Position numbers and translations under genes: made by a program. A DNA stretch of 22,332 bases from a virus: positions 1 through 22,332 of IMG/VR virus record IMGVR_UViG_3300042549_002051; one strand, written 5' to 3'. How positions within the stretch are numbered: the stretch's first letter is position 1; every line of letters starts with the position of its first letter. This document shows, one piece after another, positions 1 to 22,064 of the stretch. The notes under the pieces were generated by a model. The model had not been told where the DNA came from and searched no databases. It was given only the letters and a program-made list of their open reading frames with translations.

Positions 1-938
1 GGGCATTTATCCCGAAGTTGGTCGTACAAATCTACAACTCGACGCCCCTGATGGCGGCACTGATTGCTAACTCACAGACTGCCTCCGGCGGTGTGTCGTC
101 AGTTTCGGTTCCGGTTCAGGGTTCTCAATTCGTGAATGCTCAGTGGTCGGACTATTCCGGTTCGTTCGCACAGCCTTCCGTTCAGCAAGGTGCTTACCAA
201 GCTGAATTTAACCTGAAGCTGCTGGTGTCTCCTGTACCGTTCCTCGGTATGGAAGGTGCAGTTCAGCAAGACTATGCAATCATCCCTCTGATCGAAGCGC
301 GTATGAACGACGCGACCAACGTCATGATGGATTCGATGGCAACTGCGCTGTACACCAATACCACCAACAACCAGCAATTTATCGGCCTACCGGCTGCGGT
401 TGACGATGGTACTGGCACCGCGACCTACGGCAACATCAACCGTAGCTCAAACACTTGGTGGAAGTCGAAGCAGTATGCGGCAGGTTCGGTCAACCCGACC
501 CGTCAGAACGTACTGCAATACATCTCCGGCACTGTGAAGAACGGCGCTGAAGTACCGACTTTCGGTGTTTGCGGCTTTGGTACTTGGACGCTGCTGGCGC
601 AAGATTATGTAGGTCAGGAAAACTACATGATCACTCCCGGCTCAGGCTTTGATGGCGATGCCAACGGCCCACAGGCGGCTTTCCGCGCTTTGATGGTAGC
701 CGGTGTGCCGATCTATCCAGACCCGTATTGCCCGGAAGGTACTCTTTACCTGCTGAACACGAACTATCTCTCGCTCTATATCCATGAGCAGGCATCGTTC
801 GCCTTCACTGGCTTCGAGTCCACACTTCCGAACTTCCAGATTGGCTACGTTGGTGCAGTTCTGATGATTGCAGAACTGGTAAACACCAAGCCGAAAGCCA
901 TGACGAAGATTACGGGCTACAACTCTTTGAGCCTGTAA
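1..938 (+). CDS. major capsid protein (HK97 fold), 5' partial
   Basis: The frame is open from the window edge (first whole codon at 3, reading AFIPKLVVQIYNSTPLMAAL), so the gene starts outside the window; the TTG at 18 is internal. About 311 residues are visible. The protein forms the icosahedral shell. Support is the overall character of an HK97-type coat protein: an N-terminal FIP...L..YNSTPLMAAL helix, a central segment near residues 137-155 containing TATYGNINRSSNTWWKSK, which matches the 'G.I.R..N.WW' pattern common in phage coat proteins, and a C-terminal beta-rich region ending in NSLSL. It lies directly upstream of small head genes and an adaptor, as expected for a head module. Codon use is richer in G/C than in downstream genes, fitting high expression. 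The coat identity is strong; the exact family is not certain. Confidence 0.85.
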   Translation, partial: AFIPKLVVQIYNSTPLMAALIANSQTASGGVSSVSVPVQGSQFVNAQWSDYSGSFAQPSVQQGAYQAEFNLKLLVSPVPFLGMEGAVQQDYAIIPLIEARMNDATNVMMDSMATALYTNTTNNQQFIGLPAAVDDGTGTATYGNINRSSNTWWKSKQYAAGSVNPTRQNVLQYISGTVKNGAEVPTFGVCGFGTWTLLAQDYVGQENYMITPGSGFDGDANGPQAAFRALMVAGVPIYPDPYCPEGTLYLLNTNYLSLYIHEQASFAFTGFESTLPNFQIGYVGAVLMIAELVNTKPKAMTKITGYNSLSL

Positions 939-948
939 GGAGGAAATC

Positions 949-1272
949 ATGTCTCTTGCTACTAATAAAATCATTCTGGCTGGCGCTCAGAGCAATACTC
1001 CGGGTGCCTACTTCCAGACCGTTACTGTTACCGCAGTCGATTCGGGCAATGGCACTGTCATTCCGGCAGGTATCTATGTCATGTTCCCGTCGGCTAACGT
1101 CACTGTGCTGGCTTACAACGGTTCGTCTAACGCAACCGTTATGGCATCTAACACAGGTGGCGTAGTGATTTCGGATGGTGTCAACGTGTATGCCAAGAAT
1201 TCTTCTGGCAATGCAACGGTGACGCTGTTGGATATCAACGGCGGTCAGGCTGCTGGCGAAACCTACGCATAA
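949..1272 (+). CDS. small Ala/Thr/Val-rich virion protein, probable head decoration
   Basis: This 107-residue protein begins ten bases after the capsid stop, with an excellent ribosome binding site (aggagg at 939-944). It has almost no charged residues and is made of alternating hydrophobic and Ser/Thr/Asn residues (YVMFPSANVTVLAYNG, VVISDGVNVYAK), the look of a beta-sandwich. No catalytic motif is seen. Position immediately after the coat gene and strong translation signals suggest an abundant capsid decoration or head-fibre protein. That role is inferred from composition and context; no named family was recognised. Confidence 0.65.
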   Translation: MSLATNKIILAGAQSNTPGAYFQTVTVTAVDSGNGTVIPAGIYVMFPSANVTVLAYNGSSNATVMASNTGGVVISDGVNVYAKNSSGNATVTLLDINGGQAAGETYA

Positions 1273-15562: not shown

Positions 15563-15765
15563 AGAAAGCAAAGGGGCTGAATCCTGAACTTGAGCAGGCT
15601 ATTTATGATTTACTCAAGCAAACAATGAATGACTCTACCGCATCACTAACTGACAAAACGAAAGTGCTTGACCGGGTTCTGAAGCTAGAACAGATTAAGC
15701 AAAAGATTATGGATGATGAGTACGGAAGTGGGTTTTATTCCAACGATGATGACGAGTCGGAATAA
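15559..15765 (+). CDS. small helical protein, possible packaging-related (terminase small-subunit-like)
   Basis: This 68-residue protein is coupled by ATGA to the upstream gene. MKKAKGLNPELEQAIYDLLK, then SLTDKTKVLDRVLKLEQIKQKI form helices, followed by an acidic tail DDEYGSGFYSNDDDESE. I recall similar small proteins in phage packaging regions, which suggests a terminase small-subunit-like or regulatory role, but no terminase large subunit is in the window and the protein is short for that job. Its last 59 bases are overlapped tail-to-tail by the HNH endonuclease gene on the other strand, so the two genes share sequence in opposite directions. Confidence 0.6.
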   Translation: MKKAKGLNPELEQAIYDLLKQTMNDSTASLTDKTKVLDRVLKLEQIKQKIMDDEYGSGFYSNDDDESE

Positions 15766-16300
15766 ACTTTTCGTCATGCCAAATTTTATTTTGGCAAACT
15801 AGAAATATCGTGTGCTTATGCACATTGTATTTTTGGGCAAGATCGGAGTAAGTATGGTTTTTGTAAAGTTCTCGAATTACTTTGACGGACTCCCAACTAA
15901 GGCCATTAGTTCGGTTTTGCGCTTGTTCTTTGGAAGAAACCCATCGGCAGTTGCTAGGATGATAACCAAAAGAGTTATCAATTCTGTCAATGGTCAAGTT
16001 TTCTTCGTATCCATTTTGATAAGACCATTCTTTGAACTTATCAAAAACACTCCATTCGTCACAAATTTTTATGTTTGCGCCGCCGTATTTTGGATAACCA
16101 AAGGACTTGGAATTGTTGCATCTTTGGTTAACGCCGTACCAAATGCGATAAAGTCTTGTGCGGCTGTGGTTATGAGTTGTAAGGGTTTGCCTGCCGCGAC
16201 AAGGGCGGCAATAGTGACTTTGATGAGCTTTGTCACTGCGTCGATTAAAAACGCCTTGACACCCAAGACAGGTAAATTCAAAGTATTTTCTGGTAGTCAT
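15707..16300 (-). CDS. HNH homing-type endonuclease with zinc ribbon and HTH
   Basis: The start at 16300 is chosen because ggggagg lies directly upstream and an in-frame TTG at 16330 would lie upstream of the -10 box. The 197-residue product has a zinc-ribbon-like N-terminus (C11xxC14, C31xxC34) and then THNHSRTRLYRIWYGVNQRC...YGGANIKICDEW. The nuclease core LTIDRIDNSFGYHPSNCRW (102-120) followed by EQAQN has D105, R106, D108, N117 and W120 as in the common phage HNH family. A helix-turn-helix (SWESVKVIRELY...YSDLAQKYNVHKHTIFLV, 136-168) probably binds the target site. It is antisense to the late genes, AT-rich, with its own promoter: marks of a freestanding homing gene. Confidence 0.85.
   Translation of the reverse strand: MTTRKYFEFTCLGCQGVFNRRSDKAHQSHYCRPCRGRQTLTTHNHSRTRLYRIWYGVNQRCNNSKSFGYPKYGGANIKICDEWSVFDKFKEWSYQNGYEENLTIDRIDNSFGYHPSNCRWVSSKEQAQNRTNGLSWESVKVIRELYKNHTYSDLAQKYNVHKHTIFLVCQNKIWHDEKFIPTRHHRWNKTHFRTHHP
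15777..15796. repeat. AT-rich inverted repeat near the end of the HNH gene
   Basis: TGCCAAA (15777-15783), loop ttttat, TTTGGCA (15790-15796): a perfect 7-bp stem just after the rightward small gene and inside the 3' part of the leftward HNH gene. No proper U-tract follows on either strand, so termination is uncertain. Confidence 0.4.
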
Positions 16301-16320
16301 ACGCCTCCCCTTTGTTGTTA

Positions 16321-16329
16321 AGTATAGCA
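16321..16329 (-). promoter_or_regulatory. extended -10 promoter for the HNH gene
   Basis: On the minus strand TGC TATACT (TGN plus a 5/6 -10 box) lies about 21 bases upstream of the chosen start, with the ribosome binding site in between. No clear -35 is present, which extended -10 promoters tolerate. It would let the inserted gene be expressed independently of the opposing late transcription. Confidence 0.5.
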
Positions 16330-16375
16330 AATAAGAAGATTGGGGAGTTATTTAATTTAATGAGGGAGAAGAGTA

Positions 16376-19994: not shown

Positions 19995-20022
19995 CCCCCG
20001 CCTAATCAGCGGGGGTTTTTTT
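19995..20022 (+). terminator. strong rho-independent terminator at the convergent junction
   Basis: CCCCCGC (19995-20001), loop ctaatca, GCGGGGG (20009-20015), then seven T. A perfect GC-rich 7-bp stem ends the rightward late transcript. The last two T belong to the stop codon of the opposing glycosyltransferase gene. In the leftward direction the hairpin lacks a U-tract, so termination there is less sure. Confidence 0.9.
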
Positions 20023-20755
20023 AGTCATTCGACAGCAAAGCACCTTCAAACAAATACGTTCCCATGTGACCTAGGTTGCACCAAGGTGCTGCATGAACCT
20101 TGCCGCCAATCTTGCGCCACTGATGGCAGAAGAAGTAATCCTCTGACAACAACCGCTTGCTCTCAGGATCAATCGGATCAAGGTAGAACCCGTAGATTTC
20201 CTGACCACCCAAGTGGCTCATGTCGCTCACATACGTCTGTGTGTGCGGCTTTAGTTGCTCAAACACATCCCGCTTGATCAGCATAAACCCTGTGCCAATG
20301 GCTGAGACTTCACACGGCTGATCTGCTGGCACTGTCACGCTAGGCTCAGCATTTAAGAGGTTGACCACAAAGCTGCCGGTGTACTTCTGCAAGTCCTCTT
20401 TGCCATCAATGGCAGCATTCTTGACGGTTTCCCAATTGATTTCCTTCTTTGGATAGATTCCACCTATGACATCTACATCAGATTCCAGCATCTTGATGAC
20501 ATCTTCAGCACGGAACCGAATGTCAGAATCAATCCAGAACAGGTAATCAGCATCCGTTTGCAGGAACTGGTGCGCCATGTTGCAACGTGCGCGAGTAATC
20601 AACGACTCATTGAACATGAAGGCACACGATGTCTTGTAACCTTTAGCCCCTAAAATGGCGATTAGGTTGATCAAGGATTGAACATATACCCCTGTGCATT
20701 GGCCACCAAACATCGGTGTGCAGATGTAAATATGTTTTTGTTTATCAGTTGACAT
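20021..20755 (-). CDS. GT-A type glycosyltransferase-like protein
   Basis: The start at 20755 has aaagga upstream, inside the HNH gene; a start at 20788 would have no such site. The 244-residue product begins HIYICTPMFGGQCTGVYVQS, then MFNESLITRARCNMAHQFL (47-65) and ADYLFWIDSDIRFRAEDVI (69-87), where DSD (76-78) is the metal/nucleotide-sugar DxD motif of GT-A enzymes. VIGGIYPKK and a SAIGTGFMLIKRDVFEQL segment fit phage glycosyltransferases of this type, and SEDYFFCHQWRKIGGKVHAAP supplies the acceptor-side acid and final strand. No membrane segment is seen. The acceptor (glycan, protein or modified base) is not identifiable. It ends the leftward operon. Confidence 0.75.
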   Translation of the reverse strand: MSTDKQKHIYICTPMFGGQCTGVYVQSLINLIAILGAKGYKTSCAFMFNESLITRARCNMAHQFLQTDADYLFWIDSDIRFRAEDVIKMLESDVDVIGGIYPKKEINWETVKNAAIDGKEDLQKYTGSFVVNLLNAEPSVTVPADQPCEVSAIGTGFMLIKRDVFEQLKPHTQTYVSDMSHLGGQEIYGFYLDPIDPESKRLLSEDYFFCHQWRKIGGKVHAAPWCNLGHMGTYLFEGALLSND

Positions 20756-21269: not shown

Positions 21270-21629
21270 CTAACTGTCCTCTGGCGAAGACTCATCCTGC
21301 GACTGATGGGGGTTTATTTCATTGCCAAGTAGCTTCAGCAAGTCGGGTAAGTGCATTAAGGCCAGTGATTTACCACCGTCCTCGCGCATGATCACAATGG
21401 ATGTTTGACCAGCTTCACAGGCTCTGTCTGCCTGTTCAATGAAATCATACACCGCAATCTTGCGTCTGCGTTTGCACTCAATCAGATAGTTGCCAAGGAT
21501 TAAGTCACCCTCATCCTTCACCTGATACTGCTTCAGGTTGCGCCGGATACGAATACCAAGCACATCAAATATCTCATTAGCAACCTCACGTTCGTAGGAT
21601 GCTCCCCGGTTCCTTGCCAGCTTACTCAT
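21270..21629 (-). CDS. PD-(D/E)XK nuclease (Holliday resolvase-like)
   Basis: This 119-residue protein starts by ATGA overlap with the upstream gene. It has the small PD-(D/E)XK fold order: N-terminal helix GASYEREVANEIFDVLG with E13/E15, a beta pair with RRNLKQYQVKDEGDLILGNY where D42 is the metal-binding acid, and YLIECKRRRKI where E51 and K53 complete the site, followed by VYDFIEQADRACEAGQ. Resolvases and endonucleases of this size process branched DNA during phage replication or packaging. Its neighbours (SSB-tip protein and HTH protein) support a DNA-metabolism role. The exact substrate is not determined. Confidence 0.78.
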   Translation of the reverse strand: MSKLARNRGASYEREVANEIFDVLGIRIRRNLKQYQVKDEGDLILGNYLIECKRRRKIAVYDFIEQADRACEAGQTSIVIMREDGGKSLALMHLPDLLKLLGNEINPHQSQDESSPEDS

Positions 21630-21775
21630 CAGTAGCAGTTCGTATTGCAGCTATTACCGTAGCAGCAGGTAGTGCAAGTAACACACCGCCCCTGATCACA
21701 GTAGGTGTTGTAGGTGCAGCTTGCCCACACCAAAGGTGCAGTCACTGCCAACCACAAAGCGAATAAGTAACGCAT
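21629..21775 (-). CDS. secreted cysteine-rich small protein
   Basis: The start at 21775 is preferred because aaggaga lies at a good distance upstream; a longer reading from 21841 would run antiparallel to no site and overlap the previous gene. The 48-residue product has a signal peptide (MRYLFALWLAVTAPLVWA) and then about 30 residues with eight cysteines (CTYNTYCDQGRC, CTTCCYGNSCNTNC). Cleavage after VWA is likely; a lipobox (WASC) is poor. The spacing suggests several disulfides, which would need the oxidising periplasm. Its place among cytosolic DNA genes is odd. The role is unknown. Confidence 0.7.
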   Translation of the reverse strand: MRYLFALWLAVTAPLVWASCTYNTYCDQGRCVTCTTCCYGNSCNTNCY

Positions 21776-21788
21776 GATTGTCTCCTTA

Positions 21789-22064
21789 TCAAAAAGGAAT
21801 ATCGCCATCTTCACGGCGCTTGCTAGGGAAGGGATTGGCATTGCCGCTAGTGTTCTCAGCAGGTTGCCAGTTGTCTTCTTTCAGGCTGATCAACGCACCA
21901 CCCTTTGTTTCTTTCGTCCACGCAGCCAGCTTGATGGTATCGCCCGGAGCATAGTGTTGCTCCACCTTTAGCTCACCACGCCAATCAGGGCTGCCAGCGC
22001 TCTTCTTGTTGCGGTTGCTCAGTAGTACACCAGTACCGGGTTTTCTATCTTGATAATCACTCAT
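21789..22064 (-). CDS. small protein with SSB-like acidic C-terminal tip
   Basis: This 91-residue protein starts by ATGA overlap after the HTH gene. MSDYQDRKPGTGVLLSNRNK, then GSPDWRGELKVEQHYAPGDT, IKLAAWTKETKGGALISLKE resembles a family of small phage proteins with one beta domain related in pattern to single-stranded DNA-binding proteins. The C-terminus REDGDIPF closely copies the DDDIPF tip by which bacterial SSB recruits repair and replication enzymes. It could act as a phage SSB or compete for SSB partners. The N-terminal fold assignment is tentative, the tip is clearly visible. Confidence 0.65.
   Translation of the reverse strand: MSDYQDRKPGTGVLLSNRNKKSAGSPDWRGELKVEQHYAPGDTIKLAAWTKETKGGALISLKEDNWQPAENTSGNANPFPSKRREDGDIPF

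Follow-up and report, generated by a model that had tools for sequence, protein, structure and literature searches.

The locus and its features

The window, i.e. the whole stretch of DNA analysed here, comprises 22,332 nucleotides (positions 1 to 22,332 of IMG/VR virus record IMGVR_UViG_3300042549_002051). Its minus strand carries a short gene that probably encodes an exported, cysteine-rich peptide. The features of the locus are as follows.

21629..21775 (-): coding sequence of the putative exported peptide, 48 residues plus a TGA stop, supported by conservation and a selection test
21722..21775 (-): signal peptide, residues 1-18, with predicted cleavage after V-W-A; the signal-peptidase-I motif occurs in 156/156 family proteins
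21632..21721 (-): mature peptide, residues 19-48, with eight cysteines; strands predicted at 20-27, 30-39 and 42-47 and four probable cysteine pairs, supported by AlphaFold2, indel positions and covariation of residues 26 and 31
21782..21787 (-): Shine-Dalgarno sequence AAGGAG, six bases 5' of the peptide ATG, read from the DNA
21789..22064 (-): upstream neighbour, an SSB-like protein of 91 residues with an acidic tail (GDIPF); phrog_18154, E 1.1e-4
21270..21629 (-): downstream neighbour, a RusA-like Holliday junction resolvase of family phrog_244, E 7.2e-20; its start overlaps the peptide stop
20021-20752 (-): phrog_1574 protein, encoded downstream of the peptide gene; it matches a glycosyltransferase weakly

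The gene order in the window is SSB-like protein, peptide, resolvase phrog_244, HNH endonuclease and phrog_1574 protein. The TGA stop of the peptide gene overlaps the ATG of the resolvase gene (TGATG at 21629).

Coding evidence

Translation of 21775-21629 (-) yields 48 residues: an 18-residue signal, MRYLFALWLAVTAPLVWA, followed by a 30-residue mature part, SCTYNTYCDQGRCVTCTTCCYGNSCNTNCY. All eight cysteines fall within the last 30 residues, so the frame, the coordinates and the count of eight cysteines in about 30 residues given in an initial annotation of the sequence are borne out. Cysteine density alone is weak evidence and a poor screen in this genome, because six stop-free frames of the window reach at least eight cysteines per 30 residues; 100 Markov-resampled windows gave 13 hits. 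It is conservation across relatives, and not density, that rules out cysteine richness by chance and indicates that the 21775-21629 frame is real.

Purifying selection on the peptide is strong. Across 61 distinct coding sequences of the eight-cysteine form, pS and pN were 0.812 and 0.087 for the mature part, and 0.678 and 0.098 for the signal part. In the same 61 sequences, the columns less than 90% conserved numbered 13, 9 and 45 at codon positions one, two and three, respectively. The pS and pN values and the third-position variation identify the frame as a selected protein-coding gene, and this signature of coding selection goes against the possibility, raised in the initial annotation, that the frame is untranslated. 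Constraint on an RNA or an antisense product was ruled out, as third codon positions vary and the antisense frames contain stops (in 55, 61 and 57 of the 61 sequences).

Existing annotation can miss this family. Only two annotated phages, MW202462 and MW202544, encode the full-length peptide. In MW202462 the peptide gene at 755-895 (+) is unannotated and a hypothetical-protein CDS annotated at 817-1059 (-) overlaps it; likewise, an opposite-strand frame is annotated over the unannotated peptide gene of MW202544.

Family size and cysteine framework

The peptide belongs to an abundant family. At least 532 viral stretches (of 600 candidates) encode relatives, and another scan gave at least 518 (of 599). 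Further relatives, among the matches listed, came from a pattern scan on the C-terminal motif that is independent of the signal peptide, and the 80 loci kept from a broader query comprised 79 six-cysteine forms and one eight-cysteine form. The resulting set covers at least 271 places and at least 157 distinct proteins; one incomplete protein was left out, giving 156. Members share a signal peptide and a C..CC[YF]G core, with the first cysteine (C1) 12-16 residues before the core, together with C7, C8 and a C-terminal residue.

Of the 156 distinct proteins, 107 have six mature cysteines, 49 have eight and none has an odd number; four proteins have further cysteines within the signal peptide. 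The wider family is thus mainly a six-cysteine family, and the eight-cysteine form has one extra pair. Conservation of all eight cysteines, which the initial annotation had proposed to check in homologues, therefore holds among the nearest viral relatives, where 80/80 among the matches listed keep 48 residues and every cysteine, and does not extend to the wider family (six in 107/156). A cysteine pattern as such is conserved, with six or eight throughout, and the even count in 156/156 is consistent with the proposed disulfide-rich mature part.

No convincing family match was found in Pfam, PHROG or NCBIfam, and the window protein had none at all. When 114 members were scanned singly, the best E values were 0.0061 (Pfam), 0.0011 (PHROGs) and 0.0033 (NCBIfam), each reached in a minority of members. 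A search of the PDB by sequence returned no convincing relative chain, and a literature search found no description of the family. A relative met in BFVD is A0A6J5M8Q5 of an uncultured Caudovirales phage (49 residues, 73% identity over 30 residues, TM 0.95), which belongs to the same family as the window peptide. Its accession appears in no paper of the literature searched, and "Lipoprotein" is a database label only. The results reveal an abundant, mobile and new family of exported peptides that has no name in the libraries searched.

Export signal

A [small residue]-X-Ala site lies 0-2 residues ahead of the first mature cysteine in 156/156 distinct proteins by a motif test, and the first six residues carry a net positive charge in 155/156. 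These features support export through a signal-peptidase-I type signal. The signal peptide noted initially is thereby corroborated, and the concern that it might not be conserved in homologues did not hold when compared across sequences. Lipoprotein identity was ruled out, since the lipobox [LVI][ASTVI][GAS]C occurs in 1/156 distinct members and the window protein lacks it. The label of A0A6J5M8Q5 is doubtful because the family has a signal-peptidase-I motif and not a lipobox.

Predicted fold and disulfide register

Structure prediction, suggested in the initial annotation, was run with AlphaFold2. With an alignment of 114 sequences the full-length model has a helix at 3-17 and strands at 20-27, 30-39 and 42-47 (mean pLDDT 77.2, pTM 0.41). 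With 126 mature sequences and a six-cysteine query, strands were placed at 2-9, 12-21 and 24-29; mean pLDDT was 91.7 and pTM only 0.41, equal to the full-length model. The mature part is thus predicted to be a three-stranded antiparallel sheet without a helix. The spacing of the 126 distinct mature sequences fits this layout, as indels are confined to the two turns: 117 share one spacing, eight have one more residue in the first turn and one has four more in the second.

Two-residue turns at 28-29 and 40-41 give pairing sums of 57 in the first hairpin and 81 in the second. This register would set every cysteine opposite a partner, and the disulfide pairs are probably C20-C37, C26-C31, C38-C43 and C34-C47. 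In the predicted register T36 and T45, both invariant, likewise lie opposite one another; the family has invariant threonine and glycine. Disulfides read from the register in this way would imply cross-strand ladders stapling the sheet, as opposed to the cystine knot of knottins and conotoxin-like peptides.

Covariation agrees with one of these pairs. Of the 118 mature sequences that are 30 residues long, 31 have both C26 and C31, 87 have neither and none has just one of them; 26-31 ranks first among covarying pairs in the whole set and second when six-cysteine forms are taken by themselves. This covariation reflects few (one or two) independent events, because the eight-cysteine form makes up a single nested clade, possibly lost once (two changes), on a tree that is poorly resolved and includes the cysteine columns.

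Foldseek against the PDB returned nothing below E 1.6 for the full-length model or 0.66 for the mature part, and the best VIA-align Z of 3.5 is too low to be meaningful for a three-stranded sheet. A likeness to the TCT motif of insect antifreeze proteins was dismissed, as no 12-residue repeat is visible by eye.

Gene neighbourhood

Neighbours were surveyed at 210 places remaining after identical flanks were removed (205 upstream and 205 downstream neighbours, from a simple ORF caller). The peptide gene shares its strand with the upstream neighbour in 194/205 (median gap 10 nt) and with the downstream neighbour in 180/205. An SSB-type acidic tail ends the upstream neighbour in 83/205 and the downstream neighbour in 0/205, and several SSB types are represented. 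A replication initiator is often found downstream of six-cysteine forms. The setting among cytosolic DNA proteins, which the initial annotation had considered unusual for such a peptide, is therefore seen across relatives as well, with DNA-metabolism genes on either side, and the gene content suggests an early operon. A phrog_1574 protein turned up close to the peptide 48 times in a survey of neighbours.

The mature part is more conserved than most neighbours, with mean identities of 0.70 versus 0.40 for SSB-like neighbours and 0.76 versus 0.37 for initiator neighbours. In the comparison with resolvase neighbours the two are equal (0.90 for the peptide and 0.91 for the resolvase), a point against the function proposed below.

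Two further observations concern the surroundings of the gene. In seven loci (1729-1586 (-) of L181, and L078, L080, L081, L082, L083 and L194), a diverged 48-residue second copy lies upstream of the peptide gene. It has the same eight-cysteine spacing, a Shine-Dalgarno sequence and about 40% identity, occurs as two DNA variants only and lacks a credible signal peptide in these seven loci. In the capsid relative MW202753 (locus L165), a 55-residue frame at 28107-28274 (-), which begins like a signal peptide and has four cysteines close to its C-terminus, lies between SSB-like and RusA-like genes. It is unrelated to the peptide, and a search for its relatives found none; this single case may be another exported peptide in the slot.

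Distribution and phage life style

At least two capsid lineages that are unrelated to each other carry the peptide gene. The 47 long phage records searched (MW202462 and 46 IMG/VR contigs picked by length) include 12 that encode the window's capsid (phrog_9953), 12 that encode the MW202462 capsid and 24 that encode neither. The phrog_9953 records comprise eight with the eight-cysteine form and four with the six-cysteine form, and the MW202462-capsid records four and eight, respectively. One contig of 56997 bases (G033, which holds L147) has both capsid types and may be a chimeric assembly or two joined phages. Only 3/18 relatives of the window capsid in records of at least 20 kb carry the peptide, and two of the three were already known carriers. 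The two capsid lineages and the 3/18 count indicate that the gene is accessory and mobile.

The 47 records yielded no tyrosine integrase and no serine resolvase; both were present in the MAG containing locus L163, which was searched alongside. The carrier phages are apparently virulent, with the caveat that absence of an integrase is no proof of a virulent life style because many of the 47 records are probably fragments.

Bacterial genome contigs gave one hit, an alphaproteobacterial MAG contig with Erf, Gam, SSB and endolysin genes, in a scan limited to the patterns CTTCCYG[NA] and M[KR]YL[FI]A[LV]W, which many bacterial six-cysteine copies would escape because just two patterns were used. 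That MAG is also the only one of 289 genomes of its class with the peptide (1/289). No hit was found in a plasmid search. Within the reach of these scans a host or plasmid gene was rejected, given that the sole bacterial contig hit carries the genes just named and that plasmids gave none.

Likeness to known exported proteins

Superinfection exclusion and envelope takeover are among the tasks of small exported phage proteins, and the solved mechanisms that we found are from coliphages (T4 and T5). T4 Spackle (gp61.3) is an early gene product and a signal-cleaved periplasmic exclusion protein with a disulfide (PMC7677548). Both it and the peptide are phage-encoded, and the early expression, signal cleavage, periplasmic location, disulfide bonding and exclusion role of Spackle are predicted or proposed for the peptide. 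However, Spackle is a 75-residue helical bundle with one disulfide, whereas the peptide is a predicted 30-residue beta sheet with six or eight cysteines; the three predicted strands do not agree with a helical bundle. The Spackle family phrog_1586 matched 1/114 members weakly (E 0.069) and the window protein not at all. T5 Llp is described as a periplasmic exclusion lipoprotein with a disulfide (PMC9586334). The exclusion lipoproteins Llp and Cor share with the peptide small size, export, a disulfide and periplasmic action (predicted for the peptide), but they are lipidated at an N-terminal cysteine, and 155/156 members of the peptide family lack a lipobox.

Outside phages, the closest analogy is with thanatin and other stapled beta-hairpin antimicrobials. 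Thanatin is a disulfide-closed beta-hairpin that binds LptA and blocks LPS transport, and the likeness lies in the cross-strand disulfide hairpin and the envelope target. It differs in its insect origin, its one hairpin and its one disulfide; the comparison is one of working principle only, without shown homology.

Proposed function and alternatives

Exclusion or envelope modification, as first suggested from the sequence, is the likeliest guess for a gene product that is exported, accessory and encoded by apparently virulent phages. We tentatively propose, with somewhat less than even confidence, that the phage makes a periplasmic peptide that blocks the envelope or excludes superinfecting phages. 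Its synthesis would coincide with that of the replication and recombination proteins, and export through Sec and cleavage by signal peptidase I would follow. Oxidation in the periplasm would then produce a rigid 30-residue three-stranded antiparallel sheet, in which cross-strand disulfides staple each hairpin (two of them for each in the eight-cysteine form). The stapled sheet would bind, from the periplasmic side, an envelope component conserved among hosts, for which an outer-membrane receptor or an envelope-biogenesis protein is a candidate. Binding would block the entry of competing phages in the manner of T4 Spackle or T5 Llp, without kinship to either, and these two proteins make it the use with the best precedent. 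More generally, an accessory peptide that is exported, probably rigid and strongly conserved at its surface most likely acts on some envelope component that is conserved as well. Exclusion proteins that target their own virion are expected to track virion genes, and the peptide gene does not, which argues against the exclusion reading. A host envelope target is likelier than a virion target because the peptide is spread over unrelated capsids.

The main rival to exclusion is that the peptide, by strand addition, inhibits a host protein of envelope biogenesis or quality control, such as Lpt, BAM or a periplasmic protease, so as to take over the cell and not to exclude phages. A stapled sheet with free edge strands would suit strand addition, conservation over unrelated phages fits a conserved host target, and thanatin sets a precedent by blocking LPS transport via LptA. 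Antimicrobial hairpins are cationic, however, unlike the near-neutral phage peptide, whose mature net charge is 0 or +1 in 127/127 (K, R, D and E counted), and no analysis indicated a target; we consider this inhibition unlikely. A lysis-timing or counter-defence protein, such as an antiholin-like sensor or a protein that blocks a defence residing in the envelope, is quite unlikely. T4 RI is a periplasmic phage protein with a role of this type, and the accessory distribution fits counter-defence, but the peptide gene lies among replication and recombination genes, away from lysis genes, and has no conserved partner.

A role that begins only once lysis has set the peptide free, whether on cells nearby or in signalling from one infection to the next, is also quite unlikely. 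Disulfide peptides of compact shape often persist outside cells, and survival there would suit such a role. Matches to the signal-peptide families AimP (3 of 114 members, best E 0.0057) and Phr (2 of 114, best E 0.0068) point the same way, but they are weak and are taken as signal-peptide resemblance. The surveyed neighbours include no consistent receptor-like partner gene, and there would be no lysogeny switch to steer, because no integrase was found. A metallothionein-like metal-binding or redox peptide with free thiols is highly improbable. The many cysteines, the C-x-x-C-C spacing and weak matches to MerP (13 of 114 members, best E 0.0045) and CopI (10 of 114, best E 0.012) speak for it, whereas export to an oxidising periplasm, the strictly even cysteine count, the cross-strand register and the invariant threonine and glycine speak against it.

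Taken in its broadest form, the envelope-directed reading would hold that virulent phages of several capsid lineages exchange a gene, placed among their replication genes, for a secreted sheet of 30 residues and three strands, with a cystine ladder in either hairpin, which hits one conserved envelope target and blocks either rival phages or envelope biogenesis. We regard this reading as doubtful; under it, scaffold and gene family would be previously undescribed, and phages would be making their own natural equivalent of the stapled beta-hairpin antibiotics. That the peptide is conserved in different phage lineages suggests a target in the bacterial envelope that is itself conserved, and the scaffold, which is tiny, near-neutral and predicted to be rigid, would be easy to synthesise and test.

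Elsewhere in the window, a 207-residue open frame at 15707-16330 (-), beginning MLYLTTKGRRMTTRKYFEFTCLGCQGVF, lies within plus-strand late genes and looks like a putative insertion of the homing-endonuclease type.
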